From Teichococcus aerophilus (GTDB lineage Bacteria; Pseudomonadota; Alphaproteobacteria; Acetobacterales; Acetobacteraceae): 64,000 nucleotides of DNA. This document shows positions 25,809-41,769 of this stretch, in pieces. The notes under the pieces were generated by a model. The model was not told the origin of the DNA. It searched no databases and worked only from the letters and a program-made list of their open reading frames with translations. Each line of letters begins with the position of its first letter. Positions within the stretch are counted from its first letter, which is position 1. The translations under genes were made by a program, and so were the position numbers. The stretch lies in assembly GCF_014490485.1 (NCBI RefSeq), contig NZ_JACTVA010000005.1:62001-126000 (forward strand), written 5' to 3'.

Positions 25809-25849
25809 AGCAGGCGGGTACGGGGCCGGCCTTGAAGTGAGCCTCGATG

Positions 25850-25887
25850 CCATCCATCTACCATCCACACGGATGGTATATGGATGG
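25850..25887 (+). promoter_or_regulatory. Nested inverted repeat, candidate CopG-family operator
   Basis: CCATCCATCTACCATCC (25850-25866) and GGATGGTATATGGATGG (25871-25887) are reverse complements at 16 of 17 positions around an ACAC centre. Each arm itself contains two half-sites (ATGGATGG and GGATGGTA), giving four tandem half-sites, the arrangement expected for cooperative ribbon-helix-helix dimers. It ends 6 bases before the regulator start codon, so binding would block its own promoter or ribosome-binding site. Confidence 0.6.
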
Positions 25888-25893
25888 CGCATC

Positions 25894-26313
25894 ATGACGG
25901 ATAACGTGACCGAGTTGCGCCCCAAAGGCGGTGACAGCGAGAAGATCACCATCAATCTCGGCTATGTCGATCTCGGCCATATCGACCTGCTGGTACAGGA
26001 CGGCTTCTACGCCAACCGGACCGATTTCATCCGCACCGCCATCCGTAACCAGATCGAACGCCATGCCGAGGCCGCGCGGCAATCCGTCGCACGGCGAAGC
26101 CTCGATCTCGGCATGCGGCACTTCACCCGCGCGGACCTGGAGCAGGTCCAGGCGGCAGGCGAGATGCTGGATATCCGCGTCCTCGGCCTCGCCAGCATTG
26201 CCCCCGATGTCACGGCGGAACTAGCCCGCGCCACTATCCGCTCGCTCTCCGTGCTGGGCGCGCTGCAAGCGAGTGCCGCGGTGAAGGCAGCCCTTGCCGA
26301 ACGGCTTCGCTGA
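25894..26313 (+). CDS. CopG-type ribbon-helix-helix regulator
   Basis: 139 residues. The N-terminal part EKITINLGYVDLGHIDLLVQDG, then YANRTDFIRTAIRNQIERH, is a ribbon-helix-helix strand plus two helices (about residues 18-60). The rest (SLDLGMRHFTRADLEQVQAAG and RVLGLASIAPDVTAELARATI) is a C-terminal domain of unknown fold found in CopG-like proteins next to PHB-depolymerase genes. Start ATG 25894 follows the operator palindrome; an upstream in-frame ATG at 25837 would place the palindrome inside the gene. Probable autorepressor that also controls the downstream esterase. Confidence 0.8.
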   Translation: MTDNVTELRPKGGDSEKITINLGYVDLGHIDLLVQDGFYANRTDFIRTAIRNQIERHAEAARQSVARRSLDLGMRHFTRADLEQVQAAGEMLDIRVLGLASIAPDVTAELARATIRSLSVLGALQASAAVKAALAERLR

Positions 26314-26385
26314 GCCACCACGGCCAGCGGCCCAGCGTGCCCCCTCGATGCGCCGTGCCTTGATCCTTTTCAGAAGGCTGGACCC

Positions 26386-27510
26386 ATGAATTTCCCGCGC
26401 CTCCAAGGCATGACCGAAGCGCTCCGCCTGACCCAGGCGGGCCAATTGAACGATGCGACCCAGTTGCTGCAGCAGCTTTGCCAGGGGCAGGCGGCGACAG
26501 GCCCGAGGGACGCGACAGTGCGACCGCGGCGCGTGATCGACCTGGCGCGGGCACTACCGAAAGCGATTGCGTCCGGCGTTGTCAGCCCGGGCCCTGCGGC
26601 CCCTCGCGCCACTGTCTTCAACGGCACCGCCGCCAGGCCAGCCAATTCGCCCATGCCAGCCGGTGCCGCCTTCCATGCCCTGACCTATAGCGGCCCAACA
26701 GGGACCCGCGCCTATCGGCTCTACGTCCCCGCCAGCTATCGCGGCGCGGCAGTGCCGCTGATCGTCATGCTGCATGGCTGCACCCAGTCGCCCGAGGACT
26801 TCGCCACGGGCACCGGGATGAACGTGCTGGCGGAGGCGGAGGGGTGCCTTGTCGCCTATCCGGCCCAGCCGGCCTCGGCCAATCCGCAAAAATGCTGGAA
26901 CTGGTTCAACGCCAACGACCAGCAACGGGACCAGGGCGAGCCGGCGATCCTGGCCGGGCTGACGCGGCAGATCATGCGGGACTACGCCGTTGACGCCCGC
27001 CGTGTTTATGTCGCCGGGCTTTCCGCCGGCGGTGCGGCGGCAGCCATTCTAGGCGCGGTCTATCCGGACCTCTACGCCGCCATCGGCGTGCATTCGGGCC
27101 TGGCGTGTGGTGCGGCGCGGGACATGCCCTCCGCCTTCGCCGCCATGCGGCAGGGCGGTGCGGCGCCCAGCCGCGCTGCCGCCGGCCAGCGCACGCCACC
27201 CGCCATCGTCTTCCATGCCGACCGGGACGGCACGGTGCATCCGCGCAATGGCGACCAGGTCCTGGCGCAATTCGGCGCCGGCCTGGGCATGAAGCCGGAG
27301 CGCCAGGATGGGCAGGTGCCGGGCGGCCACCGCTACACCATCAGCCGCTACCGCAACGGCCAGGGTGAGCCGCAGCTTGAGCATTGGTTGATCCAAGGCG
27401 GCGGCCACGCCTGGGCCGGTGGACATGCGCCGGGCAGCTATACCGACCCACGTGGTCCGGACGCATCCCGTGAAATACTGCGGTTTTTCCTACAGCACCG
27501 GATGGCCTAA
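26386..27510 (+). CDS. PHB depolymerase family esterase
   Basis: 374 residues, alpha/beta hydrolase. After an amphipathic N-terminus (MTEALRLTQAGQLNDATQLLQ) common to this cytoplasmic subgroup, the core has oxyanion motif MLHGCTQSPEDFA, lipase box VAGLSAGGAAAA (Ser213), Asp in FHADRDGTVHP (about 279) and His in IQGGGHAWAGG (about 345). The CW motif NPQKCWNWFNANDQQR is family-typical. No signal peptide is seen, so it may hydrolyse intracellular polyhydroxybutyrate oligomers or a different ester. AGAAGG precedes the ATG. It lies 72 bases after the CopG-type gene and is probably in the same regulon. Confidence 0.88.
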   Translation: MNFPRLQGMTEALRLTQAGQLNDATQLLQQLCQGQAATGPRDATVRPRRVIDLARALPKAIASGVVSPGPAAPRATVFNGTAARPANSPMPAGAAFHALTYSGPTGTRAYRLYVPASYRGAAVPLIVMLHGCTQSPEDFATGTGMNVLAEAEGCLVAYPAQPASANPQKCWNWFNANDQQRDQGEPAILAGLTRQIMRDYAVDARRVYVAGLSAGGAAAAILGAVYPDLYAAIGVHSGLACGAARDMPSAFAAMRQGGAAPSRAAAGQRTPPAIVFHADRDGTVHPRNGDQVLAQFGAGLGMKPERQDGQVPGGHRYTISRYRNGQGEPQLEHWLIQGGGHAWAGGHAPGSYTDPRGPDASREILRFFLQHRMA

Positions 27511-27708: not shown

Positions 27709-29796
27709 CTAAGCCCTGGAATCGATCAGCGTCTTGATCCGGTTCGCCAGTGCATCCATCGCGAAAGGCTTGGTCAGGACATGCATGCCGGGATGCAGGC
27801 TGCCCTGGCCGAGCACCGCGTTCTCCGCGTAACCGGTGATGAACAAGATCCGCAGATCGGGGCGCAGCAATCGCGCCGCATCGGCCAGCTGCCGGCCATT
27901 CATGCCGCCCGGCAGGCCGACATCCGTTACCAGCAAATCGATATGCAGGTCAGATTGCAGGATTCGCAAGCCGGCATGGCCGTCCGCGGCCTCGACCGCC
28001 GCATAGCCCAGATCCTCAAGCACCTCGGTGACGATCATGCGCACGGTGGCCTCGTCATCCACCACGAGTACCGTCTCGCCCTTCTCCGCGCGCGGTGCGT
28101 CCGCCAGGCCGGATTGCGCATCCATGCGGACGAGGTAGCCGTCATGGCGCGGCAGATAGAGGCGTATGGTGGTGCCGTGGCCGACTTCGGACTGGATCCT
28201 AATATGCCCCTCCGATTGCCGGACGAAGCCATAGATCATGGAGAGGCCCAGGCCGGTACCCTGGCCCAGCGGCTTGGTGGTGAAGAACGGGTCAAAAGCA
28301 CGCGCCATGACATCCGGCGTCATGCCCACGCCACTATCCGTGACGGTGAGGACGACGTACTGGCCAGCCGGCAGGTCGTGGTCCTGCCCAGCCTGATGGT
28401 CCACCTTGGCGTTCGAGGCGTGGATGATCAGCCGGCCGCCATCGGGCATGGCGTCGCGCGCGTTGATGCAAAGATTGAGCAGGGCGTTCTCAAGCTGCGG
28501 CGGGTCCACGAGGGTGAGCCACAGATTATCCGCCCGCGCGACTTCCAGCGAAATCTCCGGCCCGACGGTACGGCGGACCAGGTCCTCCATTCCCGCCACC
28601 AGCTGGCTGACATCGGTGGTCTTGGGATCCAGCGTCTGCCGGCGGGAAAAGGCAAGCAGGCGGTGCGTTAACGCCGCCGCGCGCGCGGCGGCTTCCTGCG
28701 CCGAGTTGACGAACCGGGCGATCTCATGCACCCGGCCCTGCGCGATGCGAAGCTGCAGCAGCTCCAGGCTTCCCGTGATGCCAGCGAGCAGATTGTTGAA
28801 ATCATGCGCCAGGCCACCGGTGAGCTGGCCGACCGCCTCCATCTTCTGGGACTGGCGCAGCTGCTCCTCAGTCCGCTCGCGCTGCGCGATTTCCGCCAGC
28901 ACGACGTCGTGCGCCAGGCTGAGTTCGGCCGTACGGGAAGCAACGCGGTCTTCCAGCGTCTCGTTCAGGCGGCGGAGTTGATCTTCCGCCGTCTTGCGAT
29001 CGGTGACATCCGAGGAGACGCCGACGAGCCTGGTCTTGCCGGCCTGGCGGTTCCGCACCAGACGCGCACGCAACTCCGCCCAGTGCACGGTGCCGTCCGG
29101 CCAGAGGGTGCGGAACTCGGTGGCGAAGTCGCTACCGGTCTCGGCGCTGGCACGGATACGGGCGAGCACCTCGGCCCGGTCCTCTGGATGGATGCTGTCG
29201 ACCAGGTCGTCGTAGCCGAAATCCGCGTCCTGCCTGCGGCCAAACACTGTCCTGCAGGTGGTGGACGCGGCCAGGACACGGGCTTCGACATCAAGTTCCC
29301 AAGGGCCGAGCCGGCCGGCCTGCAGCGCGGTCGCCAGCCTGCTCTCGCCCTCATGCAGCGCCTCGATCCGCGCCCGCGCGTCATACTGACGCTGCCGTCC
29401 GCGTAAGGCGGAGCGGGCGAGGCTGATGAAGGTCGTCGGGTGGAACGGGCGCTCCAGGAAGGTGACGTTGCCCAGGATGTCGAGCAGACGCACGGCGGCC
29501 GGATTCCGCTCCAATCCACCGCCGCTGCGGGTCAGCACGATGAAAGAGAAGTCGGACCACGCCGGCTGGCGCGCCAGCCGGGCGGAGAGGCCGCGGAGAT
29601 CGGCGCTCTGGAGCGCTTCCTCCGTCACCACGCCGAAGCCCGCCTCATCGTCCAGCGCGGCCTCGAACATGCCGAGATCCTGGCAGACGAGGCTGGAAGC
29701 TTGCGCCTCCGCCAACAGGGCCTGCGCGATGGTGGCATCCCGCCCATGCGGCATGTAGACCAAAGCCCGCGGCGACGAGACGGCTGAGTGAGGCAT
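27709..29796 (-). CDS. Hybrid histidine kinase with PAS and receiver domains
   Basis: 695 residues, no membrane segment. Residues 1-135 form a degenerate receiver-like domain ending [24 protein letters not shown] at about 150-270 ([29 protein letters not shown]), a coiled coil at 270-315, HisKA with His331 ([21 protein letters not shown]), HATPase with N-box [14 protein letters not shown] and G-boxes TDSGVGM and [11 protein letters not shown], then a C-terminal receiver with Asp625 ([11 protein letters not shown]). Its ATG overlaps the kaiC-like stop (TAATG), so it is coupled to that ATPase and is its probable output partner. Confidence 0.92.
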
Positions 29797-31298
29797 TATT
29801 CGGTGATCGTGCCGTTCATCAACGGCATCGCGGCACCAACGAAAGTCGGGACACCCCGTAGCACGCCCTGGAATTCGTCGAGCGGTATGCCAAGTTGAAG
29901 GCCCTTGGCGCTGATGCGGTACTCACGGATCGTATCCTCGTGCGACCCGGTACGCTTCTTGATGACCGAGACCGCCCGGCGAACCCTGCCCATCGCTTCG
30001 AAGTAGCGCAGCAGGATGACCGTATCCGCCAGATAGGTGATATCCACAGGTGACTTCATGTCACCCACCAGCCCATGCTGCGCCACGGTCAGGAACGTGG
30101 TCGCGCCCTGGCGGTTCAGGTACTGCAATAATTCGTGGATGTGCAGGATGAGCGATTTTTCATCCGGCATGGCTGCCTGATAGCCGTTCAGGCTGTCGAT
30201 CACCACCGTCTTGGCCTGGGCAAAATCCACCCGTTCCCGCACCCGATGCGCGAACTCGCCCGGCGAGAGCTCGGCGGCGTCGACCTGCTCGATATGCAGC
30301 ATGCCGCTGTCGCGAAGGCCCTGGAGATCGAACCCCATGGCCCGCGTCCGTTCGAACAACAAGCCGAGTTCCTCGTCGAAGACGAACATGGCCACCTTCT
30401 CGCCGCGCTTGGCAGCGGCGATCAGAAACTGCAGTACGAAAGTACTTTTGCCGGTGCCAGCCGGGCCGAGCACCAGGGCGCTCGACCCTTGCTCGACCCC
30501 GCCGCCGAGCAAATCGTCCAACTCGGGAATGTCGCTGGTCATGCGACCACGCGTGAAGCCTGTGCGATGCTCGGCGGCGACAAGCCGGGGAAACACATGG
30601 ACGCCGCCGGTCTTGACGGTGAAATCATGGAAGCCGCCACGGAACGACTGTCCGCGATACTTGGACACCCGCAGCCGCCGCCGCTCCGCCCCATAATCGG
30701 GTGCGAGCTCCTCCAGGCGGATCACGCCGTGGACGACGCTGTGCACCGTCTTGTCAAGGGACTCCGAGGTCAGATCGTCCAGCAACAGCACCGTGGCGCC
30801 CGAGCGGGCGAAATAATGCTTCATCGCCAGGATCTGCCGCCGGTACCGCAAAGAACTTTGCGCCAGCAGCCGGATCTCCGAGAGCGAATCGAGGACGACG
30901 CGGGATGGCCGCACACGCTCGAACATCTCGAAGATCTGCCGCGTCGCCTCGCCAAGCTCAAGGTCGGAGGAGTAGAGCAGGCTCTGCTGCTGGGACGCGT
31001 CCAGCAGGCTCTCCGGCGGCACCAGCTCGAAGACCTCGATACTTTCATCAAGGGTCCAGCCATGAGAGGCCGCACCACTGCGCAGCTCACGGTCGGTTTC
31101 CGAGAGGGTGATATAGAGTCCCTTCTCCCCCGCTGCAGAGCCTTCCAGCAGGAAGCGCAGGGCAATGGTGGTCTTGCCGGTGCCGGGCGTGCCCTCCAGC
31201 AGGAACAGATGGCCCTGGGCCAGTCCGCCGACCAGGATGTCATCCAGGCCGGGAACGCCGGTGCGGGCCTTGTGCGGCGGGCCTACTTCACTCTGCAT
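29796..31298 (-). CDS. KaiC-like double RecA-domain ATPase
   Basis: 500 residues from ATG 31298. CI domain: Walker A EGTPGTGKTT at about residues 35-44, catalytic acidic pair in TLSETDREL, Walker B RVVLDSLSEI. CII domain: Walker A LGPAGTGKST (about 277-286), FVFDEELGLLFER, Walker B TVVIDSLNG, and FLTVAQHGLVGD. The linker VRRAVSVIKKRTGSHEDTIREYRIS is the KaiC-family ending. The Ser/Thr pair autophosphorylated in cyanobacterial KaiC CII is not evident. The start lies 11 bases inside the HTH gene. No kaiA or kaiB is near; non-cyanobacterial KaiC homologues act in stress or timing signalling with histidine kinases. Confidence 0.9.
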   Translation of the reverse strand: MQSEVGPPHKARTGVPGLDDILVGGLAQGHLFLLEGTPGTGKTTIALRFLLEGSAAGEKGLYITLSETDRELRSGAASHGWTLDESIEVFELVPPESLLDASQQQSLLYSSDLELGEATRQIFEMFERVRPSRVVLDSLSEIRLLAQSSLRYRRQILAMKHYFARSGATVLLLDDLTSESLDKTVHSVVHGVIRLEELAPDYGAERRRLRVSKYRGQSFRGGFHDFTVKTGGVHVFPRLVAAEHRTGFTRGRMTSDIPELDDLLGGGVEQGSSALVLGPAGTGKSTFVLQFLIAAAKRGEKVAMFVFDEELGLLFERTRAMGFDLQGLRDSGMLHIEQVDAAELSPGEFAHRVRERVDFAQAKTVVIDSLNGYQAAMPDEKSLILHIHELLQYLNRQGATTFLTVAQHGLVGDMKSPVDITYLADTVILLRYFEAMGRVRRAVSVIKKRTGSHEDTIREYRISAKGLQLGIPLDEFQGVLRGVPTFVGAAMPLMNGTITE

Positions 31299-31644
31299 CG
31301 GTGGTCCCGATCTGATCCAGTACGGTCTTGGGGAGGGCATAGGCTGGGATAGCCGCGAGCACGTCGCTCATGCGGTCCCTCGCGCGCCCGGATTCATAGT
31401 CGGATTGTCTGCGAAGCCAGAACCGCGAGGGCACACCGCAGAAGCGCTCCAACCGCAGCGAGGTCTCAGCAGTGATGGCGGCCTGCCCCGCCATGATGCG
31501 ATGAAGGCTTTGCCGTGTGATCCGGAGTTCGACGGAAGCCTGACTCACGCTCAGGTTGAGCGCGGGCAGCACGTATTCGCGCAGTAATGTGCCAGGATGC
31601 GGCCAGACCTCGGGATGGGGCGCCGGGATCGGCCTGTTCTTCAT
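31288..31644 (-). CDS. HigA-like HTH protein without toxin partner
   Basis: 118 residues. The start HPGTLLREYVLPALNLSVSQASVELRITRQSLHRIMAG matches HigA antitoxins (XRE-type HTH at about 25-80), continuing AITAETSLRLERFCGVPSRFWLRRQSDYE, also HigA-typical. The tail after residue 90 (RARDRMSDVLAAIPAYALPKTVL) is an extension. The expected higB toxin would lie upstream on the same strand; 163 bases there contain no toxin-like frame. Instead the gene overlaps the kaiC-like start, so it probably works as a regulator of the KaiC/kinase operon. Confidence 0.82.
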   Translation of the reverse strand: MKNRPIPAPHPEVWPHPGTLLREYVLPALNLSVSQASVELRITRQSLHRIMAGQAAITAETSLRLERFCGVPSRFWLRRQSDYESGRARDRMSDVLAAIPAYALPKTVLDQIGTTDAE

Positions 31645-31807: not shown

Positions 31808-34800
31808 TTACCGCTCCTGCGTAGCGTGCAAGCCCAAATACGCGGCAACATGGCGGGCCAAGTCCTGCGCATAGGAACCTACGACCAACTCGTGATGCGA
31901 CCCCGCGACACCGACAATTTTTAGTTGAGACGACAGACGTTGCCAGAGCGGCAGCGAATCGCAGGTTCGCGGATCGCGACGCTCGGCATGAAATAGGATC
32001 ACCGGACCGGGGAAGGGTTGCGGCCGATAGGAGGCATAAGCCAGCTCACACCCGGCCCGCACGCGATCCAGTGGCGGCGGCAGCGGCCGCTCTGTCTCCG
32101 CCGTCGCCACAGTGTTCCGACTTGGGGTGAGGCCGGCTGCCACCCGAATGCTGTTGCCGATGTTCGCCAGCTCCTGACGAAGATAAGCCCGGCGCTCACG
32201 GGTGTTCATGCCAGCCATGGCGTCGCGATAGACCGCGAAGCGCCCGAGGCGGAATCGCAGCCAGTCGCGCAGCGACAGGTTGCGCGGATGGAAGCCTGAA
32301 TCGAGCAGCGCCAGCATATCCATGCGTTCGCCAGCTTCGGCCAATTGTCGCGCCATGTCGTAGACCACCAGGCCTCCGAAGGAGTAGCCGCATAGCGCAT
32401 AGGGACCGTGTGGCTGGACTTCGCGCAGTGCCGCAATGTAGTGCGCGGCCATGGCGGGAATATCCCGGTGCGGCAGCTTGTCCTGATCCAGGCCATAGGC
32501 CTGAAGGGCGTAGACCGGACGGCCGGACAGGGCGCCGAGATGTCCCAGGAACTGGCGCTGCTCCACGACGGTGCCGGACATCCCGTGCACCGCGAAGACC
32601 GGCCGCCCGGCGCCATCGCTGACGCGCACGAGAGAGACGTTCCGCTCCGTACCACCCGCTTCAATCAGCTGCGCTAGTTCGGCCACCGTACGGGCGTGGA
32701 ACAGCACGGACATCGGGAGATCCTGGCCGAACTCGGCCTCGATCGCGGCGAAGAGCGAAATGGCCATAATCGAGTCGCCGCCGAGAAGAAAGAAGTCATC
32801 CTCGGCGCTAACGGCGTTGAAGCCGAACAGGCGCCTCCAGATGCCGCAAAGTCGCTCTGTGACTGAAGCGGCTGGATCGGTGGTCTGGCCAGCGACGATG
32901 CCAAGAGGCGCTTGCAGGGCGGAGTGATTTGCAAGTTCCTCCAAAATCTCGGGGTTCCGCAGCGCCGCGCGATTGGCGATGGCCCGCCCATTGACCGCGT
33001 CCGACGCCGCACGTTCGGAACGCTTGCCACTATGGGTTGTCGGAAGGTCACTGACCTGGGCCAAGACGGCGGGAACATGGGCGGGCGATGTGCGCTCGCC
33101 GATCTGCCGACGTATCGCCCTGCTGAGCACATCATCGAGCAACGTCGCGTCCTGCAGAACGACGAGCAGAACGATGCGCGATGCGCCATCCGGCAACACC
33201 TGCTCGACCGCCAAGGCATCCTTGATGCCATCGATGCCTGATAACGCCGCATAAATCTCAGCAGGGCCAATGCGGATGCCACGAACGTTGAGAATGCCGT
33301 CCGAGCGGCCCCGCATGCGGAAGCCGCCGTGAGGGGATACCGAGATGAGATCCCCGTGGGTCCAGACGCCGGGGTTCTCAGCGAAATATGCGGCGCGGAA
33401 CGCTTTGCCATCCGGATCGTTGAGGAAGCCGACGGGACGGGAGGGAAACGGATTGGCGCAGATCAGCTCGCCCTCTGTTGCAGCACTCGATCCATCCTTT
33501 AGCATTGCCCGGACGTCGAGGCCGAGGCTGCGGCACTGCGCCTCTCCCCGAAACACCGGCAGGCCGGGATGGCCGAGCACGAAGCACCCGATGATATCGG
33601 TGCCACCGGAAACCGACTGCAGCGGCACCGGCTTCACCTGGCTGGCGACCCAGTCAAACTGCTCGTCCCGAAGAATGGATCCGGTGGAGAGGATGGCCCG
33701 CAACGAGGCAAGATCGGTCTGTCGCGCCGGCACATAGCCATGGTCCGCGCAGAGTTTCAGGTAGGGCGGGCTGGTGCCGAAAACCGTGACGCGATGTTCT
33801 TCGACAATACGCCACAGGGTTTCGGGCCCGGTCACGGCGCCGTCGTACAGAACAAGCGTCGTCCCAGCCGCCAGTGCCGAGAGCTGCCAGTTCCACATCA
33901 TCCAGGCGGTGGAGGTGAAAAAGAACAGCCTGTCACGCCCGCCCAGGTCACAGTGCAGGCGATGTTCCTTCAGGTGCTCGATCAAGGTACCGCCGGCGCC
34001 GTGGACGATGCATTTCGGTGCGCCCGTGGTGCCTGAAGAAAACAGAATGAAGAGTGGCTGGTTAAAATCGAAGCGTGCCCACGCCCTACCCTTGACCGAT
34101 GCCCACGGGATGTCGGACAGCAGCAGCACCGCGGGCGCCTCGGCCGGCAAGGGAACAGAGGCACGGCCCAGTAGAATCATGCCCAGGCGAGGTGCGACCT
34201 CTGCGGCAACATGATGCACGCGCAGCGGAAGTTCGGGATCGTCCCCGCTGCTGCCGTGGGAGATGATGAGATCCGGCTTCAGCCGCGCGAAGCGGGACAC
34301 GATGGCCTCCACCCCCATCTCCGGCGCCGAGGTCGAAAGGCTGGCACCGAGTGCTGCGATCGCCAGGCAGGTGATGATCGCCATGTCATCATTGCGGAAT
34401 ACGGCGCCAACGCGGTCGCCCGCCCGCAGGCCGCGTACGTGAAGCGCGAGTGCGACCTCGGTAACCCTGCTGCGCAGCTCTGCCCAGCTGGTGCTGACCG
34501 AGGATCCGTCCGCCTTGCAGCTGATCAGGGCGATGTCGTCGTCCGTCTTGTGCCGGCCACCGCCGAGGACACATTCGGCGAAGTTCAGCCGAACATCGGG
34601 AAAGAAGCAAGCGTCGGCGATTCCTTGCCCCTGCCAGGCAGGATTTGAGTTGCCACTCCAAGGAAGATCGCACCACTCAAGAAACAATTGCCAGAAGAGT
34701 TGCGACTGCTGAACCGCGAAGTCGTCGAAGGATGCGTACGTCTCGAAGCACAGGCCTGTCCGCACTGCGCAAAACTTCTGGAATGCGGCGAGTTGTGATA

Positions 34801-34897
34801 CGGCGAAGCGTGCGGGGTCGGGATTGAAGATGGGCGCAAGCTGCGCGACCGGGTCTTTCGGCAACGGCAGGGCTTGGGTATTCAGACCATCGGGCAT
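31808..34897 (-). CDS. Stand-alone adenylation-carrier-thioesterase enzyme with acetoacetyl-CoA-synthetase-type adenylation domain
   Basis: 1029 residues in three parts. Residues 1-640 look like acetoacetyl-CoA synthetase, not a typical NRPS adenylation domain: AMP-binding ILFSSGTTGAPKCIVHG (SSGTTG at 287-292), TSTAWMMWNWQLSALAAGTTLV, the GRSDGILNVRGIRIGPAEIY hinge and catalytic Lys625 in THSGKRSE. Residues about 675-755 are a phosphopantetheine carrier, FFLLGGDSIMAISL, Ser709. From about 765 to the end is a type I thioesterase: ALCGYSFGGLVVYD (Ser839) and GSHHEL (His about 1001). GAGAGGAG precedes ATG 34897. No phosphopantetheinyl transferase or other NRPS gene is adjacent. It diverges from the exopolysaccharide cluster, so its acyl product could modify the polymer; that is inference. 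Confidence 0.9.
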   Translation of the reverse strand: MPDGLNTQALPLPKDPVAQLAPIFNPDPARFAVSQLAAFQKFCAVRTGLCFETYASFDDFAVQQSQLFWQLFLEWCDLPWSGNSNPAWQGQGIADACFFPDVRLNFAECVLGGGRHKTDDDIALISCKADGSSVSTSWAELRSRVTEVALALHVRGLRAGDRVGAVFRNDDMAIITCLAIAALGASLSTSAPEMGVEAIVSRFARLKPDLIISHGSSGDDPELPLRVHHVAAEVAPRLGMILLGRASVPLPAEAPAVLLLSDIPWASVKGRAWARFDFNQPLFILFSSGTTGAPKCIVHGAGGTLIEHLKEHRLHCDLGGRDRLFFFTSTAWMMWNWQLSALAAGTTLVLYDGAVTGPETLWRIVEEHRVTVFGTSPPYLKLCADHGYVPARQTDLASLRAILSTGSILRDEQFDWVASQVKPVPLQSVSGGTDIIGCFVLGHPGLPVFRGEAQCRSLGLDVRAMLKDGSSAATEGELICANPFPSRPVGFLNDPDGKAFRAAYFAENPGVWTHGDLISVSPHGGFRMRGRSDGILNVRGIRIGPAEIYAALSGIDGIKDALAVEQVLPDGASRIVLLVVLQDATLLDDVLSRAIRRQIGERTSPAHVPAVLAQVSDLPTTHSGKRSERAASDAVNGRAIANRAALRNPEILEELANHSALQAPLGIVAGQTTDPAASVTERLCGIWRRLFGFNAVSAEDDFFLLGGDSIMAISLFAAIEAEFGQDLPMSVLFHARTVAELAQLIEAGGTERNVSLVRVSDGAGRPVFAVHGMSGTVVEQRQFLGHLGALSGRPVYALQAYGLDQDKLPHRDIPAMAAHYIAALREVQPHGPYALCGYSFGGLVVYDMARQLAEAGERMDMLALLDSGFHPRNLSLRDWLRFRLGRFAVYRDAMAGMNTRERRAYLRQELANIGNSIRVAAGLTPSRNTVATAETERPLPPPLDRVRAGCELAYASYRPQPFPGPVILFHAERRDPRTCDSLPLWQRLSSQLKIVGVAGSHHELVVGSYAQDLARHVAAYLGLHATQER

Positions 34898-35266
34898 GCT
34901 CCGCGCTCCTCTCTTAGGGCACCTAAAGCTTATGCGTGGAAGGACGGCGCGGAATTCTGCGTTGCAGCATATCGTTGCATCCAATCAACAAAACTTGATC
35001 ACGCTGCAGTGCGGCAGACTGGCTGCGGAGTCCGTGAGAAATAGCGCAAAAATATTTCTTTTAGAGAGAATATAGCTATCTGAAATCTAGCCAGGTGGCT
35101 TTTCCTGCGCGCAACGAAATTTGTTCGTGTCTTTGTTACTTCAGCAAAACATCTTGCACTGCAACCAAAGCCAAGCCTTACCTCACCTCTGAAGCTTTCC
35201 ATTCGGTCACCTTCCAGCGAGCGGACAGAGCCGTGGCCTGGATGAGCCCGAGACATGAGGGGCCAG
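34898..35266. other. AT-rich divergent intergenic region, 369 bases
   Basis: Separates the adenylation-carrier-thioesterase gene from the first glycosyltransferase gene. Bases 35030-35220 are clearly more AT-rich than the flanks (runs such as AAAAATATTTC and TATAGCTATC), as expected for a shared promoter region. No convincing -35/-10 pair, operator or small ORF was recognised; a 94-codon frame at 34999-35283 minus overlaps the transferase start and lacks a ribosome-binding site. Confidence 0.5.
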
Positions 35267-36457
35267 ATGAAGGTAGCCATCATCCACTACTGGCTGGTTG
35301 GCATGCGGGGAGGCGAGAAGGTTCTCGAATCGCTCTGCGAGCTCTTCCCCGAGGCGGATATCTTCACCCATGTCTATAGGCCGGAGGCGATCTCGGACAC
35401 GATCCGGGCGCACCGGGTTTCGACGACGTTCATCGCGAGGTTGCCCTTCGCCGCCCGGCTGTATCAGGCGTACCTGCCGCTGATGCCGCTCGCGCTCGAG
35501 CAGCTCGATCTCCGAAAGTATGATCTGGTGATCAGCAGCGAGTCAGGGCCGGCGAAAGGGGTGCTGACGCGTCCGGATGCCTTGCATGTCTGCTATTGCC
35601 ATACGCCGATGCGATACATCTGGAATATGTACCAGGAGTATCGGCAGCAGGTGCCGCTTCCACTCCGGCCGCTTGTCTCTCTCCTGGCACACCGGCTGCG
35701 GCAGTGGGACCAGACGGCATCCGCCCGGGTCGATTTCTTCGTTGCCAATTCACGCAACATTTCGGATCAGATCCGGAAATTCTATCGGCGCCCATCCGAA
35801 GTCGTTTACCCGCCGGTGGACCTCGACCTTTTCAACGGGGCGATGGCGGCTGGGACAACGGCCGGAGATTTCTATCTATATGCGGGGCAGCTGATTCCCT
35901 ACAAACGCGTCGATCTCGCCATCGACGCCTGCAAAGCGCTTGGCCGCCGGCTGGTTATCATTGGCGGCGGCAGCGAGAAGGAACGCCTTGCCCGCCAGGC
36001 CGGACCGCTGGTGGCCTTTCTGGGGCATGTCGACGACGCCACGCTGCGCTCCCACTATGCGCGTTGCCGCGCTTTGCTGTTCACGGGCGAGGAAGATTTC
36101 GGAATCGTTCCGCTGGAAGCGATGGCCTGTGGCCGACCTGTCATCGCCTATGGGCGCGGAGGCGCACTGGAAACCGTCACGCCGGTTTCCGGCCTGCATT
36201 TCTCCGAGCAATCGATCCCGTCCCTGACGGATGCCATGCGGCGCTTCGAAGCCACCGAGCACAGCTTCGACCCACAGGCGATCGCGCAGCATGCGGGAAA
36301 CTTCTCCAAGGCGCGCTTTCGCGAAGGTTTCCTGGCTGCCCTCGACATGGCCTTGGCCGAGCAGGGCCCGGCAAGGCGTTGGCGCAGCGTCGCCGATTTG
36401 CCGCTGCCGTTTCAGCCGACTGTCACCGCCATTGCGGTAGCGGGGGAGGCGGCGTGA
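35267..36457 (+). CDS. Glycosyltransferase family 4
   Basis: 396 residues, GT-B fold. N-terminal MKVAIIHYWLVGMRGGEKVLESLCELFP and VCYCHTPMRYIWNMY are typical of the WbaZ/mannosyltransferase-like GT4 group. The C-terminal nucleotide-sugar domain starts at FYLYAGQLIPYKRVDLAIDA and has FTGEEDFGIVPLEAMACGRPVIAYGRGG, whose EX7E motif contacts the donor. ATG 35267 with GAGGGG upstream is preferred to 35255. First gene of the exopolysaccharide operon; likely adds one sugar of the repeat unit on the cytoplasmic side. Confidence 0.92.
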   Translation: MKVAIIHYWLVGMRGGEKVLESLCELFPEADIFTHVYRPEAISDTIRAHRVSTTFIARLPFAARLYQAYLPLMPLALEQLDLRKYDLVISSESGPAKGVLTRPDALHVCYCHTPMRYIWNMYQEYRQQVPLPLRPLVSLLAHRLRQWDQTASARVDFFVANSRNISDQIRKFYRRPSEVVYPPVDLDLFNGAMAAGTTAGDFYLYAGQLIPYKRVDLAIDACKALGRRLVIIGGGSEKERLARQAGPLVAFLGHVDDATLRSHYARCRALLFTGEEDFGIVPLEAMACGRPVIAYGRGGALETVTPVSGLHFSEQSIPSLTDAMRRFEATEHSFDPQAIAQHAGNFSKARFREGFLAALDMALAEQGPARRWRSVADLPLPFQPTVTAIAVAGEAA

Positions 36458-37572
36458 TGTCGGTCTCAGTTCTCCAGGTCATCGGCGATGGCAGGATGGG
36501 TGGCGGCACCACGGCGGTTCTGCAACTGGCGTCCGGGCTGCGGCATCACAGCGTCTCCGTCAGTATAGCCACCCAGCAGGGAACGGAGCTGGTCAGCACC
36601 GCCAGGTCGCTCGGCATCGTGGTGCATGAGCTGGATTTCTCGCGGCGCGCCGCCTCCCTGTTCACCTCGCGCAAAGTGCAGGCGGTCATTCGGGCGACGA
36701 AGCCCAGTATCGTTCATGCTCACGGCGCCAGGGCGGGGCTTCCCTGTGCCTTGTTGCCACGTGGGCTTGGTCCGGCCATCGCCTATACCGTGCATGGCTT
36801 CCACTACGGCAACAAAGCCATCGGCGTCCGGACCTTCGCGCGGTGGAGCGAATGGCTCTGCATCGCCGCCGCGCAGGCCGTCGTCTTCGTGTCCCAAAGC
36901 GATGCCGCGTTGGCCTCGAAGGACGGGCTGCTCGGTGGCACGACAACAAGCCATGTCATCTACAATGGCGCTGCGCAGCCCGGCGCCGAGGGCCCTCCGC
37001 GCGCGCCGGACCACGACGTGGCCTTCATCGGCAGGCTGCATCACCAGAAAAATCCGCTTCTACTGGCGGAAATCGCTCGGCTTGCTCCTGCCCTGCGGTT
37101 TCTCATCGTCGGCGATGGCGAGTTGGGCCCGGCGCTGCGCCAGCGGGTACGTGAACTGTCCTTGCAGGACCGCTTCACCTTCCTTGGCAGCCTGCCGCAC
37201 GCGGATGCGCTGCGTGCCCTCACCAGGGCCCGCTGCATGGTGCTGCCCTCGCTCTGGGAAGGCCTGCCGATGGCGGTGATTGAGGCGATGCATCTCGGCC
37301 TGCCCGTGGTCGCCACGGACATGCCCGGCCTGCGGGAGATGGTGGTGGAGAATGTCACCGGCCATCTGGTGCCGTCCGGCAACGCCGCGCTCTTCGCGAA
37401 AAGGCTCAGCGGGCTGGCGGCCGACCGGGCGAGGAGCAGCGCCATGCATGCGGCCGCCAGAAGCCGCGCCGCTGAACTGTTCTCTCTCGAACAGCAGATC
37501 GGACGGCACGCTGCCCTGTATCGCGGCATGGTGGCCGCGGCGAGATCCCGCATCGCGGAGCTCGCGGCATGA
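36457..37572 (+). CDS. Glycosyltransferase family 4
   Basis: 371 residues, ATG overlapping the previous stop (TGATG). N-terminal LQVIGDGRMGGGTTAVLQLASGL binds the acceptor side; C-terminal DVAFIGRLHHQKNPLLLAEI, FLGSLPHADALRAL and LPSLWEGLPMAVIEAMHLGLPVVATD give the GT4 EX7E pattern. A much longer in-frame ORF starting at 35596 is only the extension into the previous gene. Probably a second repeat-unit transferase. Confidence 0.92.
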   Translation: MSVSVLQVIGDGRMGGGTTAVLQLASGLRHHSVSVSIATQQGTELVSTARSLGIVVHELDFSRRAASLFTSRKVQAVIRATKPSIVHAHGARAGLPCALLPRGLGPAIAYTVHGFHYGNKAIGVRTFARWSEWLCIAAAQAVVFVSQSDAALASKDGLLGGTTTSHVIYNGAAQPGAEGPPRAPDHDVAFIGRLHHQKNPLLLAEIARLAPALRFLIVGDGELGPALRQRVRELSLQDRFTFLGSLPHADALRALTRARCMVLPSLWEGLPMAVIEAMHLGLPVVATDMPGLREMVVENVTGHLVPSGNAALFAKRLSGLAADRARSSAMHAAARSRAAELFSLEQQIGRHAALYRGMVAAARSRIAELAA

Positions 37573-38951
37573 CCGGCCGGCAGGGGCGCCATCGCGGCCT
37601 GCATCTGGTCCTTCGTGGCCTCGGCGCGTTGCTGGGCGGTACGCTAATGGCGTCCCTGTTGTCACTGCTGACCCAGACGTTCCTGGCGCGCTCGCTCACC
37701 GCGGTCGAGTACGGCCAGTTGGCCGCGATCCTGACGGTGGCCAACCTGCTGTCCTCCGTTGCCTGCGCCGGGGTTAACTGGCTGCTGCTGCAAATCTTCG
37801 GTGATGAAGGCCGGCAGGCCTATCGCTGGACACCGGCTCTCGGCCGGTTGCTGGCGCTGAGCGGCGCCTTCGCAACGGTGCTGCTGGGCGCGTATACGCT
37901 GGTGGGCAGCAGCGTCTCCGGGCAGGCGCAATGGCTGGCCTTCCTGGCTGGTCTGGCCATTGTCGCCGGCCAGGCCGCGGTCGATTTGGGTTCCGCGCGG
38001 CTGCAGCTGGAACGGCGCTATGGCGCGCTGTCGCTTTGGCAGGCGGCGACGCAGGCACTGCGGTTGCTGCTGCTCTGCCTGATGGTACTGCCGCGTGACG
38101 CCCCGCCGTCGCTGGAAGAAGTGTTGCTGTTGTACGGCCTTACCGGAATGGCGGTTGCTGCCGCCGGCGCGTGGCTGCTGCGTCCGCTCTGGTCCGCCAG
38201 CCTCGCCTTGCCGCCGGATGGCCCTGCCAGCCTTGTAGACCGCACAGCCCCGTCGCTGGTGTCCGTGGCGAAACTGGCGATGCCCTTCGCGTTGATGACC
38301 GTCTTCTACGTGCTGTACTTCCAGTGGGCCGTCGTGCTGCTCGATTGGCAGGTCGGCGGCGCCGCGGCGGCCTCCTACAGCGCGGCATTATTGCTGATTG
38401 CGGCGGCCTCCATGCTGCCGCAGGTCGTCTACATGAAATTCCTCACGCCGATCATCTGCCGCTGGGCGGTGCATGACCGCGCGCGGTTCGGCGCGGTGTT
38501 CCACCTGGGTGTCATTGCCATGTTGGCGACGGGCGTGGCCGGCATGCTGGTGCTTGGGCTCGGCAGCCCGATCCTGATCCCGCTACTGTTCGGCGATGGA
38601 TTGCCGGATGCGGTGATGGTGCTGTCCATCCTCTCCCTCGCCCTGCCGATCCGCTTCGTGCACGCATCCTTCAGCGCCACCTTTGTCAGCCCGGCCGAAG
38701 TCGCGCAAAAGGTTGGTTACCTGGGTTGGGCCGCATTGTGCGGCATCCTGGCGAATCTGGCCCTGGTGCCGGTACTAGGTTTGGCGGGCGCGCCCATCGC
38801 CGCCGTGCTGAGCGAGGCCGTGCTGCTGGCCCTGCATGTGCGCGGGATGCACCGGTTGATCCACGGCGTCTCCATCCGGGCGACGTTCCGCCCAGCGACC
38901 TCGGTCTCGTCGCTGCGCCTCCTCATGGAGCACGGCCGCCATGCGGATTGA
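37569..38951 (+). CDS. Polysaccharide flippase (Wzx-like)
   Basis: 460 residues with about 12 to 14 hydrophobic helices, starting GLGALLGGTLMASLLSLLTQTFLARSLTAVEYGQLA, the N-terminal signature of the MATE/MOP polysaccharide-transporter family. Later helices such as LAMPFALMTVFYVLYFQWAVVLLDWQVG and VGYLGWAALCGILANLALVPVLGLAGAPIAAVLSEAVLL fit Wzx. It would flip undecaprenyl-linked repeat units across the inner membrane. ATGA overlap with the upstream transferase and an 11-base overlap with the hydrolase gene downstream show tight coupling. Confidence 0.88.
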   Translation: MTGRQGRHRGLHLVLRGLGALLGGTLMASLLSLLTQTFLARSLTAVEYGQLAAILTVANLLSSVACAGVNWLLLQIFGDEGRQAYRWTPALGRLLALSGAFATVLLGAYTLVGSSVSGQAQWLAFLAGLAIVAGQAAVDLGSARLQLERRYGALSLWQAATQALRLLLLCLMVLPRDAPPSLEEVLLLYGLTGMAVAAAGAWLLRPLWSASLALPPDGPASLVDRTAPSLVSVAKLAMPFALMTVFYVLYFQWAVVLLDWQVGGAAAASYSAALLLIAAASMLPQVVYMKFLTPIICRWAVHDRARFGAVFHLGVIAMLATGVAGMLVLGLGSPILIPLLFGDGLPDAVMVLSILSLALPIRFVHASFSATFVSPAEVAQKVGYLGWAALCGILANLALVPVLGLAGAPIAAVLSEAVLLALHVRGMHRLIHGVSIRATFRPATSVSSLRLLMEHGRHAD

Positions 38952-40257
38952 CCGGCTGGCCATGGCCATGTTGCTGGCAGGCTCGATGGGCGCGCACGCC
39001 CAGCCGGCTGGCCGCATCCAGGCCTGGCTGGGCGAAGGCGGCGTTACGGCGGGCCTCGGCGTCAATGTCCACTTTCCGCCCGGGCGCCCGCGGGATCTGC
39101 CACGCATCCGGCAACTCGGCTTCCAGGTGGTGCGGACGGATCTGCTCTGGGCGCAGGTCGAGACTGGGCGAGGGCGCTATGACTGGGCGGCGGCCGATGT
39201 GCTGTTGGGCGACCTGGAAGCCAACGGCCTGCAGGCCCTGTTCATCCTCGCCTACTCCAACCCGCTTTATGCGGAGAGGGTACCGGGGCGGCCGGATTCA
39301 CCTTCGCTTGGTTACGCCGCGCCCCAGCATGGCGAAGCGCGGACCGCGTTCATGGCCTTCGTGCGCCTGGCGGCCGCGCGTTACCAGGGCCGCGTCGCGT
39401 GGGAAGTGTGGAACGAGCCCGACCATAATTTCGGCATGCCGGTCGACCTGCGCACCTATATCGGCTTCGCCGCCGAGGCCTGTGGCGCCGTGCGCGCACA
39501 GGATGCCGGCGCCGTCGTTCTAGGGCCGGCCGCGTCCGGTTTCCTGCGCTGGTTCCTGGAGGATTTCGCCGAGGCCGACCGCGCCGGATGCTTCGACGCT
39601 GTCAGCGTGCACCCCTATCGCGACCGCGCGCCGGAAGACGTGCTGGAAGACTGGGCGAGGCTGCAAGGCGTGGTACAGCGGGTCGCGCAGGCGCAGGGCC
39701 GCACGCCGCCGGCGATCGTCAACAGCGAGTGGGGCTATTCCTCCACCGGCGGCGCCTGGACCCGGCAGCGGCAGGCGGATTACGTCGCCAGGCTCTGGCT
39801 GTTGGATCGGATGGCCGGCATTCCCCTGACCATCATCTACGATTGGTGGGACGACGGCCCGGATGCCAGCCAGAAGGAAGCGAGCTTCGGCATCGTCGAT
39901 CACTGGGGGCAGCCGAAGCCGGTCCATACGGCGCTGGCGCGCATCGCCGGGGCACTGCGCGGCCTGGAGTACCAGGGCCGGGTGGAGACGTTCCGGACCG
40001 GCGAGTTCCTGCTGGCTTTCGGCGCGGCGGAGGGCCCAACCAGCGTCCTGGTCGGGTGGAACACCGAGGCCCAGGGCAGCATGATCGTCGCCCCCAGGCG
40101 CCTGTGCCTGGCGGGCCAGCCCGCGCCACTCTCCCCTGGCTGTGCGCCGGATGGCACGCAGTTCGTGGTGGCAGAGAGCCTGCGGCTGGACACGGCGCCG
40201 CGTATCTTCTCGGTCGGCGGGGATGGCTCGCTGCGGCCGGCGGGGCCGGCGCGATGA
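38941..40257 (+). CDS. Secreted glycoside hydrolase, PslG-like (GH39-type)
   Basis: 438 residues with a signal peptide (RLAMAMLLAGSMGAHAQ). A TIM-barrel clan-A hydrolase: acid/base Glu159 in VAWEVWNEPDHNF and nucleophile Glu263 in AIVNSEWGYS, spaced as in PslG-type endoglycosidases. HFPPGRPRDLPRIRQLGFQVVRTDLLW is the barrel start, and a small beta domain ends the protein. In Pseudomonas a PslG-like hydrolase inside the biosynthesis cluster trims the polymer in the periplasm; the same is inferred here from its place after wzx. GH5-like cellulase is a less likely label. Confidence 0.82.
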   Translation: MRIDRLAMAMLLAGSMGAHAQPAGRIQAWLGEGGVTAGLGVNVHFPPGRPRDLPRIRQLGFQVVRTDLLWAQVETGRGRYDWAAADVLLGDLEANGLQALFILAYSNPLYAERVPGRPDSPSLGYAAPQHGEARTAFMAFVRLAAARYQGRVAWEVWNEPDHNFGMPVDLRTYIGFAAEACGAVRAQDAGAVVLGPAASGFLRWFLEDFAEADRAGCFDAVSVHPYRDRAPEDVLEDWARLQGVVQRVAQAQGRTPPAIVNSEWGYSSTGGAWTRQRQADYVARLWLLDRMAGIPLTIIYDWWDDGPDASQKEASFGIVDHWGQPKPVHTALARIAGALRGLEYQGRVETFRTGEFLLAFGAAEGPTSVLVGWNTEAQGSMIVAPRRLCLAGQPAPLSPGCAPDGTQFVVAESLRLDTAPRIFSVGGDGSLRPAGPAR

Positions 40258-40277
40258 GAGCCATCCCTGCCCTCGGC

Positions 40278-41624
40278 TCAGGCGAAGATGAAGTCGCTCT
40301 GGCTCAGTGCCTGCAGGTGATCCAGCGTCAGGGTATCGCCCCCGGCGAAGGTCACCAGCATGGCATCGGCGCCCTGCCGCGTGGTCGCCTGCCAGCTCAC
40401 GTCGCTGGCGGAAACGCCGACCAGTTCGATCCTGTCGGTGCCACGGGTGAAGTCGGTGATGATGTCATCGCCTTCATTGCCGTGGGTGGAGAAGATGTCG
40501 GCGCCTTCGTCCCCGGCCATGCGGTCGTTGCCGGCGCCGCCATAGATGCGGTCGTCGCCCTGCCCGCCGAGGATGACGTCGTCTCCGGCATCGCCGTAGA
40601 TCGTATCGTTGCCGTTCTGGCCCCACAGATGGTCGTTGCCGGCACCGCCGGAGAGGCCATCATCGCCGTCATGGCCGGTCAGGGTGTCATTGCCACCGCC
40701 GCCTTGCAGCCAGTCATCGCCGGCGTGGCCCACCAGCTTGTCGTCCCCATCCGCGCCGTTCAGGTACACCGGCGTCGTGCTCAGCAGGATCGGGTCCACG
40801 CCCGGCCTGGCAGGCGTGGCCGGCGTCTCCGCCTCGATCGGCGCACCGGCGGCGTCCTCCTCGTAGACGCGGATGTAGTCCACCTTCATCTCGGCGGGGA
40901 ACGGCGTCGTGCTGTCCGGGTTGCCGCCCCAGTCGCCGCCGACGGCCAGGTTGACCACCAGGAAAGAAGGCCCGAAGTCGCGGAAGGCGGCGCCGTCCAG
41001 ATGCGTGGTCAGTTGGCCGTCGAAGTAGAAGTCCAGGGCGTCCTCGGTCCATTCCAGTCCATAGGTATGGAAGCCGGCCGAGACATCGGTGCCCACCGCT
41101 GCCGCGTTCGTCGTGTGCTGGGCGGGGTTGCCGCGGAAATCGTGGGTGGAGTTGTGGACGACCCAGGGGTCGTGGCCCAGCACCTCCATGATATCGATCT
41201 CGCCCATGCCGACCAGCCAGAAGGCCGGCCACAGCCCCTGCCCTTGCGGCAGCTCGGCCCGCATCTCCCAGTAGCCGTATTGCTGCCAGAAGCCGTCCGG
41301 CTGCGTCCCTTCCGAAGCCGGCCCCCCCGAGGTCTCCAGCACACCGGACACGTAGGGGGTCGAGACGTCGTCCTTCAGGTTCTCCGGCGTCGGGACAGCG
41401 GTGATCGTCAGCACGCCGTCGGCGACGCTGAAGGGATTATAGGCATCGGCCCCGCCGAACCCGGCATCCACGTAGGTCTGCTGCTCGTGGTTATCCGCGA
41501 AGGTCCGCAGGTTTTCCCAATGCGCCAGGGTGGGAGAAAAGGCGCCCCCCTGGTCCAGGAAGAGTGGCTGCTGGGGGTCATTGAATTCGGCGTCGAAGGT
41601 CAGGCGGAAATTACCAGCTGGCAT
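40278..41624 (-). CDS. GH16 endo-glycanase with C-terminal RTX repeats
   Basis: 448 residues. GH16 domain at about 8-255: catalytic MGEIDIMEVLGHD with Glu142, Asp144, Glu147; YGYWEMRAELPQGQGLWPAFWL upstream. Residues 290-375 hold about eight GGxGxDxLxG calcium-binding repeats (GHAGDDWLQGG, GGAGNDHLWG, GGQGDDRIYG). There is no signal peptide, as expected for type I secretion, and it resembles rhizobial ExsH/PlyA. ATG 41624 has GAGGG upstream; the TTG before it is rejected. It sits between the two halves of the exopolysaccharide operon on the opposite strand and probably shortens the secreted polymer. No type I secretion genes are in the window. Confidence 0.9.
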   Translation of the reverse strand: MPAGNFRLTFDAEFNDPQQPLFLDQGGAFSPTLAHWENLRTFADNHEQQTYVDAGFGGADAYNPFSVADGVLTITAVPTPENLKDDVSTPYVSGVLETSGGPASEGTQPDGFWQQYGYWEMRAELPQGQGLWPAFWLVGMGEIDIMEVLGHDPWVVHNSTHDFRGNPAQHTTNAAAVGTDVSAGFHTYGLEWTEDALDFYFDGQLTTHLDGAAFRDFGPSFLVVNLAVGGDWGGNPDSTTPFPAEMKVDYIRVYEEDAAGAPIEAETPATPARPGVDPILLSTTPVYLNGADGDDKLVGHAGDDWLQGGGGNDTLTGHDGDDGLSGGAGNDHLWGQNGNDTIYGDAGDDVILGGQGDDRIYGGAGNDRMAGDEGADIFSTHGNEGDDIITDFTRGTDRIELVGVSASDVSWQATTRQGADAMLVTFAGGDTLTLDHLQALSQSDFIFA

Positions 41625-41730
41625 CAAGATCCCTCATACGTGGCGACATCAGTCAGAAGTGCCCAATCGGCTACGTTAAGTGTAATTCTCAAGCAATACA
41701 TGCCATCTTGGAAATCATAATTCCTTACGT

Positions 41731-41769
41731 TTGAATCATGAACCGATCGATAATCGCATTATGATTCAA
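41731..41769. promoter_or_regulatory. Long inverted repeat between GH16 and wzc genes
   Basis: TTGAATCAT (41731-41739) and ATGATTCAA (41761-41769) are perfect complements around a 21-base AT-rich centre containing CGATCGAT. A second local palindrome TGATTCAATCA overlaps the right arm (41762-41772). It lies in the 295-base divergent gap and may bind a regulator of both genes. A TATACT sequence (41865-41870) further down could be a -10 box for the wzc operon. Confidence 0.45.

Follow-up and report, generated by a model that had tools for sequence, protein, structure and literature searches.

A candidate one-protein acyl-loading and transfer enzyme with an acetoacetyl-CoA-synthetase-type adenylation domain beside an exopolysaccharide operon of Teichococcus aerophilus

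A stretch of 64,000 nucleotides from Teichococcus aerophilus (NCBI RefSeq assembly GCF_014490485.1, contig NZ_JACTVA010000005.1, positions 62,001 to 126,000 of the forward strand; hereafter the window, numbered from its own first letter) carries, divergent from an exopolysaccharide operon, a gene that joins an adenylation domain of the acetoacetyl-CoA synthetase (AACS) type to a carrier domain and a thioesterase. We tentatively propose that its product is a self-contained acyl-loading and transfer enzyme that would decorate the exopolysaccharide, i.e., a one-protein acyl-decoration system; the narrower part of this proposal, loading of the protein's own carrier, appears likely when taken alone. 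The proposal is built on features that can be read from the sequences, namely the domain order, the catalytic residues, the single clade, the loss of Arg606, the adjacent phosphopantetheinyl transferases and the polysaccharide neighbourhood. We infer, in addition, that the carrier and not CoA would accept the adenylate, which acid may be used, that the acyl group would be transferred and not hydrolysed, and that the acceptor would be a sugar.

For many bacterial polysaccharides, the route by which non-acetyl acyl groups are attached has yet to be established. Three modifiers adding non-sugar groups are candidates in the well-studied system of Rhizobium leguminosarum, and of these only PssM, a pyruvyl transferase, is described as proved in the part of the source drawn on here (PMC7589315). 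A carrier-bearing AACS fusion inside clusters with Wzx and Wzc would give a concrete, clonable decoration enzyme, and it would also exemplify a CoA ligase turning into a loading domain in the style of nonribosomal peptide synthetases (NRPS).

The fused protein and its lineage

The features of the fused gene, all on the minus strand, are as follows.

31808–34897, minus: AACS-type adenylation, carrier and thioesterase protein of 1029 aa, open frame with an ATG start
32933–34837, minus: acetoacetate-CoA-ligase-type adenylation domain with the AACS C-terminal extension, residues 21–655 (TIGR01217; best match of the structure model, 4wd1)
33023–33025, minus: codon of the A10 catalytic lysine, Lys625
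32663–32857, minus: carrier (PP-binding) domain, residues 681–745 (PF00550, 60.9 bits)
32771–32773, minus: codon of the phosphopantetheine attachment serine, Ser709
31835–32602, minus: thioesterase domain, about residues 766–1021 (PF00975, 69.4 bits over 766–867; the rest forms helices and strands in the structure model)
32381–32383, minus: codon of the thioesterase nucleophile, Ser839 (triad role assigned by family pattern)
32300–32302, minus: codon of the triad Asp866 (triad role assigned by family pattern)
31895–31897, minus: codon of the triad His1001 (triad role assigned by family pattern)

The frame continues uninterrupted upstream of 34897 as far as a TTG at 34984, but the ATG at 34895–34897 is the better start because AGAGGAG sits 8 nt ahead of it. 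The adenylation part passes two curated models of acetoacetate-CoA ligase, TIGR01217 (587.8 bits over residues 22–655, cut-off 520.9) and NF002937 (644.8 bits over residues 21–661, cut-off 639), and stays far under the cut-off of the amino-acid adenylation model TIGR01733 (99.4 bits against 317.4), so that it does not qualify as an NRPS-type adenylation domain. The first-pass annotation, a reading of the window made without database searches, had described a single protein with an AACS-type adenylation domain, a carrier and a GYSFGG thioesterase, and the profile matches together with all the residues it had named bear this out: SSGTTG lies at residues 287–292, GYSFGG at 837–842, and Lys625 and Ser709 are present, the latter within an LGGxS motif as expected of a PF00550 carrier. 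Ser839, Asp866 and His1001 make up the Ser-Asp-His triad of a type I thioesterase (PF00975). These three residues, Lys625 and Ser709 are all invariant among 10 aligned sequences, the window protein included; in an alignment of 38 sequences Lys625, Ser709 and Asp866 remain invariant, and Ser839 and His1001 are kept in at least 90%. The domain order is thus adenylation, carrier, thioesterase (A-T-TE), with no condensation domain among the Pfam matches of the protein. The same annotation had allowed that the adenylation domain might prove nearer to ordinary NRPS domains by structure, but the best match of the structure model is the AACS of Streptomyces lividans (4wd1, AacS); NRPS rows are absent among the 50 rows of the structure comparison list, which in itself is no evidence of absence. 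Homologs align along nearly the full length at 40–54% identity, and the fusion is therefore real and not a product of chance.

The fusion is patchily distributed. The window genome (99.91% complete) was found to hold no other AACS, the next match having only 26% identity. Within the genus the fused protein occurs in 5 of 17 genomes, the window's own included. Matches at E 1e-100 were found in 26 of 299 genomes of the family; these reach into the carrier in 11 genomes (eight with A-T-TE, of which G176 is ended by the contig end, and three with another ending) and are limited to the adenylation part in 15. Across the phylum, where two candidates per genome were scored, 75 of 398 genomes match at E 1e-90 and the protein is fused in two, again with the window's own. 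A scan of genome contigs confirmed 576 relatives, the best 80 of which were kept as loci; in 79 of the 80 the alignment runs on through the thioesterase, reaching residue 1001 or further, and in one (L133) it goes only as far as 867. A genome search for the domain order, as the first-pass annotation had advised, thus reveals a fusion that is not unique. The best 80 come mostly from Caballeronia, Paraburkholderia and Cupriavidus (Burkholderiaceae), and also from Roseomonas-type bacteria (Acetobacteraceae), Geodermatophilaceae, Solirubrobacterales, a Myxococcales bin and others. Plasmid matches amount to 111 records, seven of which contain at least 80% of the query; where a feature is given (two of the seven) it is annotated as 'acetoacetate--CoA ligase'. 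The models of that ligase also accept proteins that continue into a carrier and a thioesterase, and such proteins are named accordingly, a name that the present analysis corrects. No report of an AACS-type adenylation domain joined to a carrier and thioesterase, or placed within a polysaccharide cluster, was found in the literature, whose coverage was incomplete, especially for subscription journals, so that absence is not proven. At least one stand-alone AACS accompanies the fused gene in 17 of 41 genomes (23 stand-alone genes, 20 of them checked as frames of 659–766 aa), and in these genomes the fusion is therefore no mere substitute for the stand-alone enzyme. One genome, that of Paraburkholderia piptadeniae (G734, containing locus L103), has three distinct fused genes in addition to a single stand-alone AACS.

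A tree of 89 adenylation domains, including 41 of the 88 fused sequences and 46 stand-alone enzymes, places the 41 fused domains on one side of a branch with SH-aLRT support of 100 (99 in a smaller tree). The 46 stand-alone domains do not form a group of their own, which indicates that the fused clade arose among stand-alone enzymes. The window protein pairs with that of Pseudoroseomonas oryzae (L068) with support of 100. Fused sequences retain the motifs WMMWNW, STG and SGGTD, and differ elsewhere from stand-alone AACS in a comparison of 88 fused with 71 stand-alone sequences. Of the latter, a first set of 51 came from family, class and phylum searches inside the window's own phylum, and a second set of 20 was taken from the 23 stand-alone genes of fusion-bearing genomes, many of them of other groups. 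Hinge residue Arg539 is found in 67 of 88 fused and 0 of 71 stand-alone sequences, giving a hinge NVRG, and two of the three variants with a different ending described below have KIRG. The A8 motif of NRPS is KxRG, and the NVRG hinge of the fused clade is, by its sequence, closer to it. Position 606 is Arg in all 71 stand-alone enzymes and basic in none of the 88 fused ones, while position 600 is basic in 71/71 and 9/88, respectively, so that the fused clade lacks basic residues that stand-alone AACS conserve in the C-terminal lobe; Arg occurs at 601 in 59 and at 602 in 52 of the 88 fused sequences. The structure model places residue 606 in a loop of the C-terminal lobe between helix 589–602 and strand 611–614. 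CoA ligases of the ANL superfamily hold the CoA phosphates with Lys and Arg residues of the C-terminal domain, and these are described as missing in the carrier-loading fatty acyl-AMP ligases (PMC8460268, consulted in part); by analogy with the CoA ligases, residues 600 and 606 may be the CoA holders of AACS. The fused clade has thus probably given up free CoA for its own carrier and re-tooled its adenylation domain, since Arg606 is lost in the loop where CoA ligases hold the CoA phosphates and the hinge has become NRPS-like.

Some candidate signs of this change did not survive the control with the second set. Six lost basic positions, as defined with the first 51 stand-alone enzymes, were cut to two (600 and 606), and the loss at 600 may be a shift by one residue. 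Lys378, considered as a sign of a changed substrate (50/51 of the first set, none of the fused sequences), was rejected, being present in just 1/20 of the second set and absent from S. lividans AACS. The control lowered our confidence in carrier loading from strong to fairly good, and shaded down slightly both the tentative case for polymer decoration and the already doubtful case for decoration throughout the clade. Two further clade signatures are Arg487 (88/88 fused, 3/71 stand-alone) and a basic residue at 527 (85/88 fused, 0/71 stand-alone).

The carrier has a plausible partner in a 4'-phosphopantetheinyl transferase gene, which lies at most 300 bp from the fused gene in 25 of 85 loci and is in all 25 the best transferase match of the stretch examined; the locus L057/L069, set outside the 85 by a duplicate filter, has an adjacent transferase gene too. 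In a Pfam tally of neighbouring genes, the transferase family accounts for 9 of 140 genes at positions 1–2 from the fusion and for at most two of 147 at positions 5–7, where it falls outside the 25 families shown. The tally used genes from a simple GC3-based caller around representatives of 48 single-linkage clusters at 78% identity, among which related lineages remain; L064, L141, L144 and L146 were dropped, as were genes below 110 or above 820 aa, and random thinning kept 140 of 161 near and 147 of 182 far genes. No transferase gene was found adjacent to the window gene, and the window genome has two members of the family elsewhere, in frames of 141 and 356 aa.

Three relatives have a GNAT-like ending where the others have the thioesterase, and they form a group (support 99) inside the fused clade, an exchange that fits a carrier-bound acyl donor. 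The GNAT-like assignment is weak, two of the three proteins having Pfam matches at or below cut-off and the third none, and for the corresponding piece of L055 no solved structural relative was found at E 1. The roughly 440 additional N-terminal residues of L059 and of L066 were rejected as domains, as Pfam finds nothing in them and first-start frames overextend in GC-rich DNA. Close to polysaccharide genes, the L055 locus (2212–16276) brings the A-T-GNAT-like fusion together with a STAND-type NTPase, a luciferase-like monooxygenase and a second AMP-binding enzyme. A CBM60-RTX protein is encoded downstream of the fusion, and the cluster looks like an undescribed biosynthetic locus.

Polysaccharide neighbourhoods

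The genes of the divergent operon and related functions in the window are the following; percentages are identities to L068.

35255–36457, plus: GT4 glycosyltransferase, first gene of the divergent exopolysaccharide operon (PF00534; 73%, divergent from the same fused gene there)
36454–37572, plus: second GT4 glycosyltransferase (58%)
37569–38951, plus: Wzx-type flippase, Polysacc_synt (51%)
38941–40257, plus: glycoside-hydrolase-like protein (weak GH39/GH5 matches below cut-off; 61%)
41824–44229, plus: Wzc-type chain-length determinant and tyrosine kinase (55%)
43839–45599, plus: Wzy_C (O-antigen ligase or polymerase) frame, true start probably near 44.3 kb (64% from residue 147)
45415–46875, plus: third GT4 glycosyltransferase frame (57%)
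46718–47920, plus: NAD-dependent sugar epimerase/dehydratase (domain scan)
51151–51864, minus: phosphoglycosyl transferase (Bac_transf), likely the initiating enzyme of the polymer (domain scan)

The order GT4-GT4-Wzx-GH-Wzc-Wzy-GT4 is collinear between window positions 35255–46875 and the L068 locus of Pseudoroseomonas oryzae at 51–73% identity, and in both the fusion diverges from the operon at the same place; the window genes at 24–31 kb have no match in L068. No site of a conserved divergent promoter was found, the alignment to L068 being unconvincing in this region.

The link extends beyond this pair. Two markers, Wzz (PF02706) and Polysacc_synt (PF01943, the Wzx family), were located in the 41 fusion-bearing genomes, with L060 covered through the genome of L058 and with L068 and L127 outside the search. 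At least one marker lies within 20 kb of 11 of 47 fused genes against 1.53 expected (P 2e-7), under uniform gene placement and rounded genome sizes, with contig ends ignored and second copies per genome counted. The stand-alone AACS of the same genomes have a marker within 20 kb in 0 of 23 cases (0.78 expected). Enrichment is also seen at 10 kb (10/47 against 0.92) and 5 kb (5/47 against 0.58), while Wzz alone is not enriched at 5 kb (1/47, P 0.26). With the window's own genome left out a marker is still near 10 of 46 fused genes at 20 kb, and homologs thus do occur close to polysaccharide genes, a point on which the first-pass annotation had made its suggestion depend. A near/far Pfam tally had been tried as a polysaccharide test and was replaced by this distance test: it failed to separate polysaccharide genes (GT4 in 4/140 near and 4/147 far genes, Wzz in four far genes) because the clusters span both zones.

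Individual loci illustrate the arrangement. In P. piptadeniae (L103) Wzx, the fusion and a GT2 gene follow each other on one strand, with a gap of 58 bp and an overlap of 8 bp between longest frames, although the true start of the fusion may be about 120 bp further in. Wzx precedes the fusion on the same strand in L098, with a UDP-galactopyranose mutase and a GDP-mannose-dehydratase-type gene near; in L187 Wzc, UDP-glucose dehydrogenase, epimerase and GT4 genes begin 749 bp after the fusion on the same strand; and in L060 the fusion is preceded by Wzc, Wzy_C, a GH5 and a GMC oxidoreductase. The linked state requires at least seven changes on the tree over 31 labelled rows (L068, L095, L074 and L117 being labelled by their own locus or a close relative), so that the linkage has been gained or lost repeatedly.

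Other neighbours were recorded in passing. An RTX-repeat protein with a GH26 domain adjoins the fused gene in L061 (4932–7823), and related proteins occur in L052 and L053. The fusion lies beside a carnitine-type operon in the Caballeronia loci L071, L076, L080, L081, L093 and L113 (partly in L073 and L097), with an AraC regulator on the opposite side and choline sulfatase further on. In the window itself, a GH16 glycanase with RTX repeats (40278–41627, minus) lies on the opposite strand within the operon, where the same junction of L068 measures only about 170 bp. A HigA-type antitoxin (31288–31644, minus; TIGR02607, 69.4 bits, cut-off 47.7) is next downstream of the fused gene, and at 27709–31340 (minus) a double KaiC-domain protein and, immediately after it, a CckA-like hybrid histidine kinase (position 29796 is shared) form a possible signalling pair next to the exopolysaccharide genes. 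A CreD-like membrane protein, an RHH_8 regulator and a PHB-depolymerase-family esterase (26386–27510) stand in a row at 24207–27510 (plus).

Possible functions

In the mechanism proposed here, the enzyme would use ATP to adenylate acetoacetate, or another 3-oxo or 3-hydroxy acid of similarly short length, and would move the acyl group onto the phosphopantetheine arm at Ser709 of its own carrier instead of onto CoA. Ser839 of the thioesterase would then accept the acyl group and hand it to a nucleophile. Within polysaccharide clusters the acceptor would most likely be a hydroxyl group on a sugar of the repeat unit while the latter is still in the cytoplasm, bound to a nucleotide or a lipid and not yet flipped by Wzx; for the GNAT-like variants it would be an amine. 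Acyl groups of this type are known from rhizobial exopolysaccharide, which bears O-(3-hydroxybutanoyl) groups (PMC5748678, consulted in part).

Several points weigh against polymer decoration. No feature was found in the sequences that would identify the substrate of the fused enzyme, and hydrolysis or cyclisation is what thioesterases generally catalyse. The scanned genes of the window operon yielded no acyl transferase, so that transfer would fall to the thioesterase itself. The fused clade has also gained basic residues, at 559, 601, 602 and 647, and 601 or 602 may replace 600; positions 580, 620, 622 and 638, conserved in the first 51 stand-alone enzymes, are not conserved in the 20 others nor in S. 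lividans AACS. Neither marker lies within 20 kb in 36 of the 47 fused genes, three homologous GT4 loci of the family (L181–L183) have no fusion in the 8–20 kb examined, and in one Caballeronia clade the fusion sits beside genes of carnitine and choline catabolism. The first-pass annotation had raised the idea of an acyl decoration of the polymer or of a lipid intermediate; the enriched linkage and the collinearity with L068 speak for it, the many fused genes remote from the markers do not, and its interpretation as a whole is partly supported.

A broader version, in which an AACS-derived clade left CoA to become modular one-gene polysaccharide decorators, with a short 3-oxo or 3-hydroxy acid, a carrier and an exchangeable last domain (a thioesterase making esters with hydroxyls, a GNAT-like domain making amides with amino sugars), must be regarded as doubtful. 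If true, Pseudomonadota and Actinomycetota would have a counterpart to Dlt that is encoded by a single gene and concealed under the common database name of acetoacetate--CoA ligase.

Among the alternatives, a free-standing small-molecule synthase, whose thioesterase would condense, lactonise or release the carrier-bound acid as a diffusible metabolite next to incidental or co-regulated polysaccharide genes, seems rather unlikely but is the most probable. Its domain order is that of aryl-pyruvate A-T-TE enzymes that join two alpha-keto acids (PMC9047271, PMC10316625, both consulted in part), the phosphopantetheinyl transferase is the adjacent partner in 25 of 85 loci, and no single acyl-acceptor enzyme is conserved beside the fusion; against it stand a polysaccharide enrichment that stand-alone AACS do not share, the position of the L103 fusion between Wzx and a glycosyltransferase gene, and an adenylation domain that is not of the amino-acid type.

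It is less probable still that the protein in effect activates acetoacetate for ketone-body, PHB or carnitine metabolism, the carrier and thioesterase serving as a relay to CoA or for proof-reading. The window genome, in which no stand-alone AACS was found, and the PHB-depolymerase-family esterase at 26386–27510 would agree with such a role, as would a loss of CoA-binding residues that is clear at one position only. In the Caballeronia clade OpuAC lies beside the fusion in eight of 11 loci, six of which also have BKACE and a 3-hydroxyacyl-CoA dehydrogenase; BKACE reactions yield acetoacetate, and this carnitine-type setting suits an acetoacetate-linked role. The setting is limited to this one clade in the loci examined, however, stand-alone AACS coexists with the fusion in 17 of 41 genomes, and Arg606 is lost in all 88 fused sequences.

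Equally improbable is that the polysaccharide link arose incidentally from the way genomes are organised, with patchily inherited genes of glycan-unrelated function gathering in the same variable regions: the patchy spread (11/299 family and 2/398 phylum genomes, own included) and the seven or more changes on the tree would fit, but not the tight same-strand spacing in L103 or a fusion and operon that stay collinear at 51–73% identity in L068 where the window genes at 24–31 kb have no match.

Comparison with known systems

The closest known relative of the adenylation part is acetoacetyl-CoA synthetase (TIGR01217; S. lividans AacS, 4wd1), with which the fused protein shares the C-terminal extension, here serving as the linker to the carrier, the motifs SGGTD, STG and WMMWNW, and scores above curated cut-offs. 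Unlike AACS, it continues into a carrier and a thioesterase, falls in a separate clade, and belongs to sequences that have lost Arg606 (71/71 stand-alone) and gained Arg487, Arg527 and Arg539.

In its A-T-TE order, its Ser-Asp-His thioesterase and the lack of a detected condensation domain, the protein resembles the NRPS-like synthetases of atromentin and polyporic acid; ralfuranone synthetase is a further enzyme of this type. These synthetases use NRPS-type adenylation domains for aryl-pyruvates, whereas that of the window protein is of the AACS type. Against the NRPS termination modules EntF, AB3403 and SrfA-C, the A-T-TE part of the model aligns over 953–989 columns with rmsd 18–25, because the domains are arranged differently; these modules also differ by their condensation domain and by another adenylation family.

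In Dlt D-alanylation, DltA adenylates, DltC carries, and a polymer is acylated (PMC13231372, consulted in part). The likeness, which is a functional analogy only, would lie in an adenylation domain and a carrier devoted to acylating an envelope polymer; unlike Dlt, the window protein is a single AACS-type polypeptide with a thioesterase end. No MBOAT partner was matched among the window proteins scanned, a scan confined to part of the genes of the window. Like the fatty acyl-AMP ligases, described as ANL enzymes that use a carrier in place of CoA and are without the CoA-holding Lys and Arg of the C-terminal domain (PMC8460268), the fused clade would load a carrier, but it belongs to another ANL branch and has both the carrier and the thioesterase fused to the adenylation domain.

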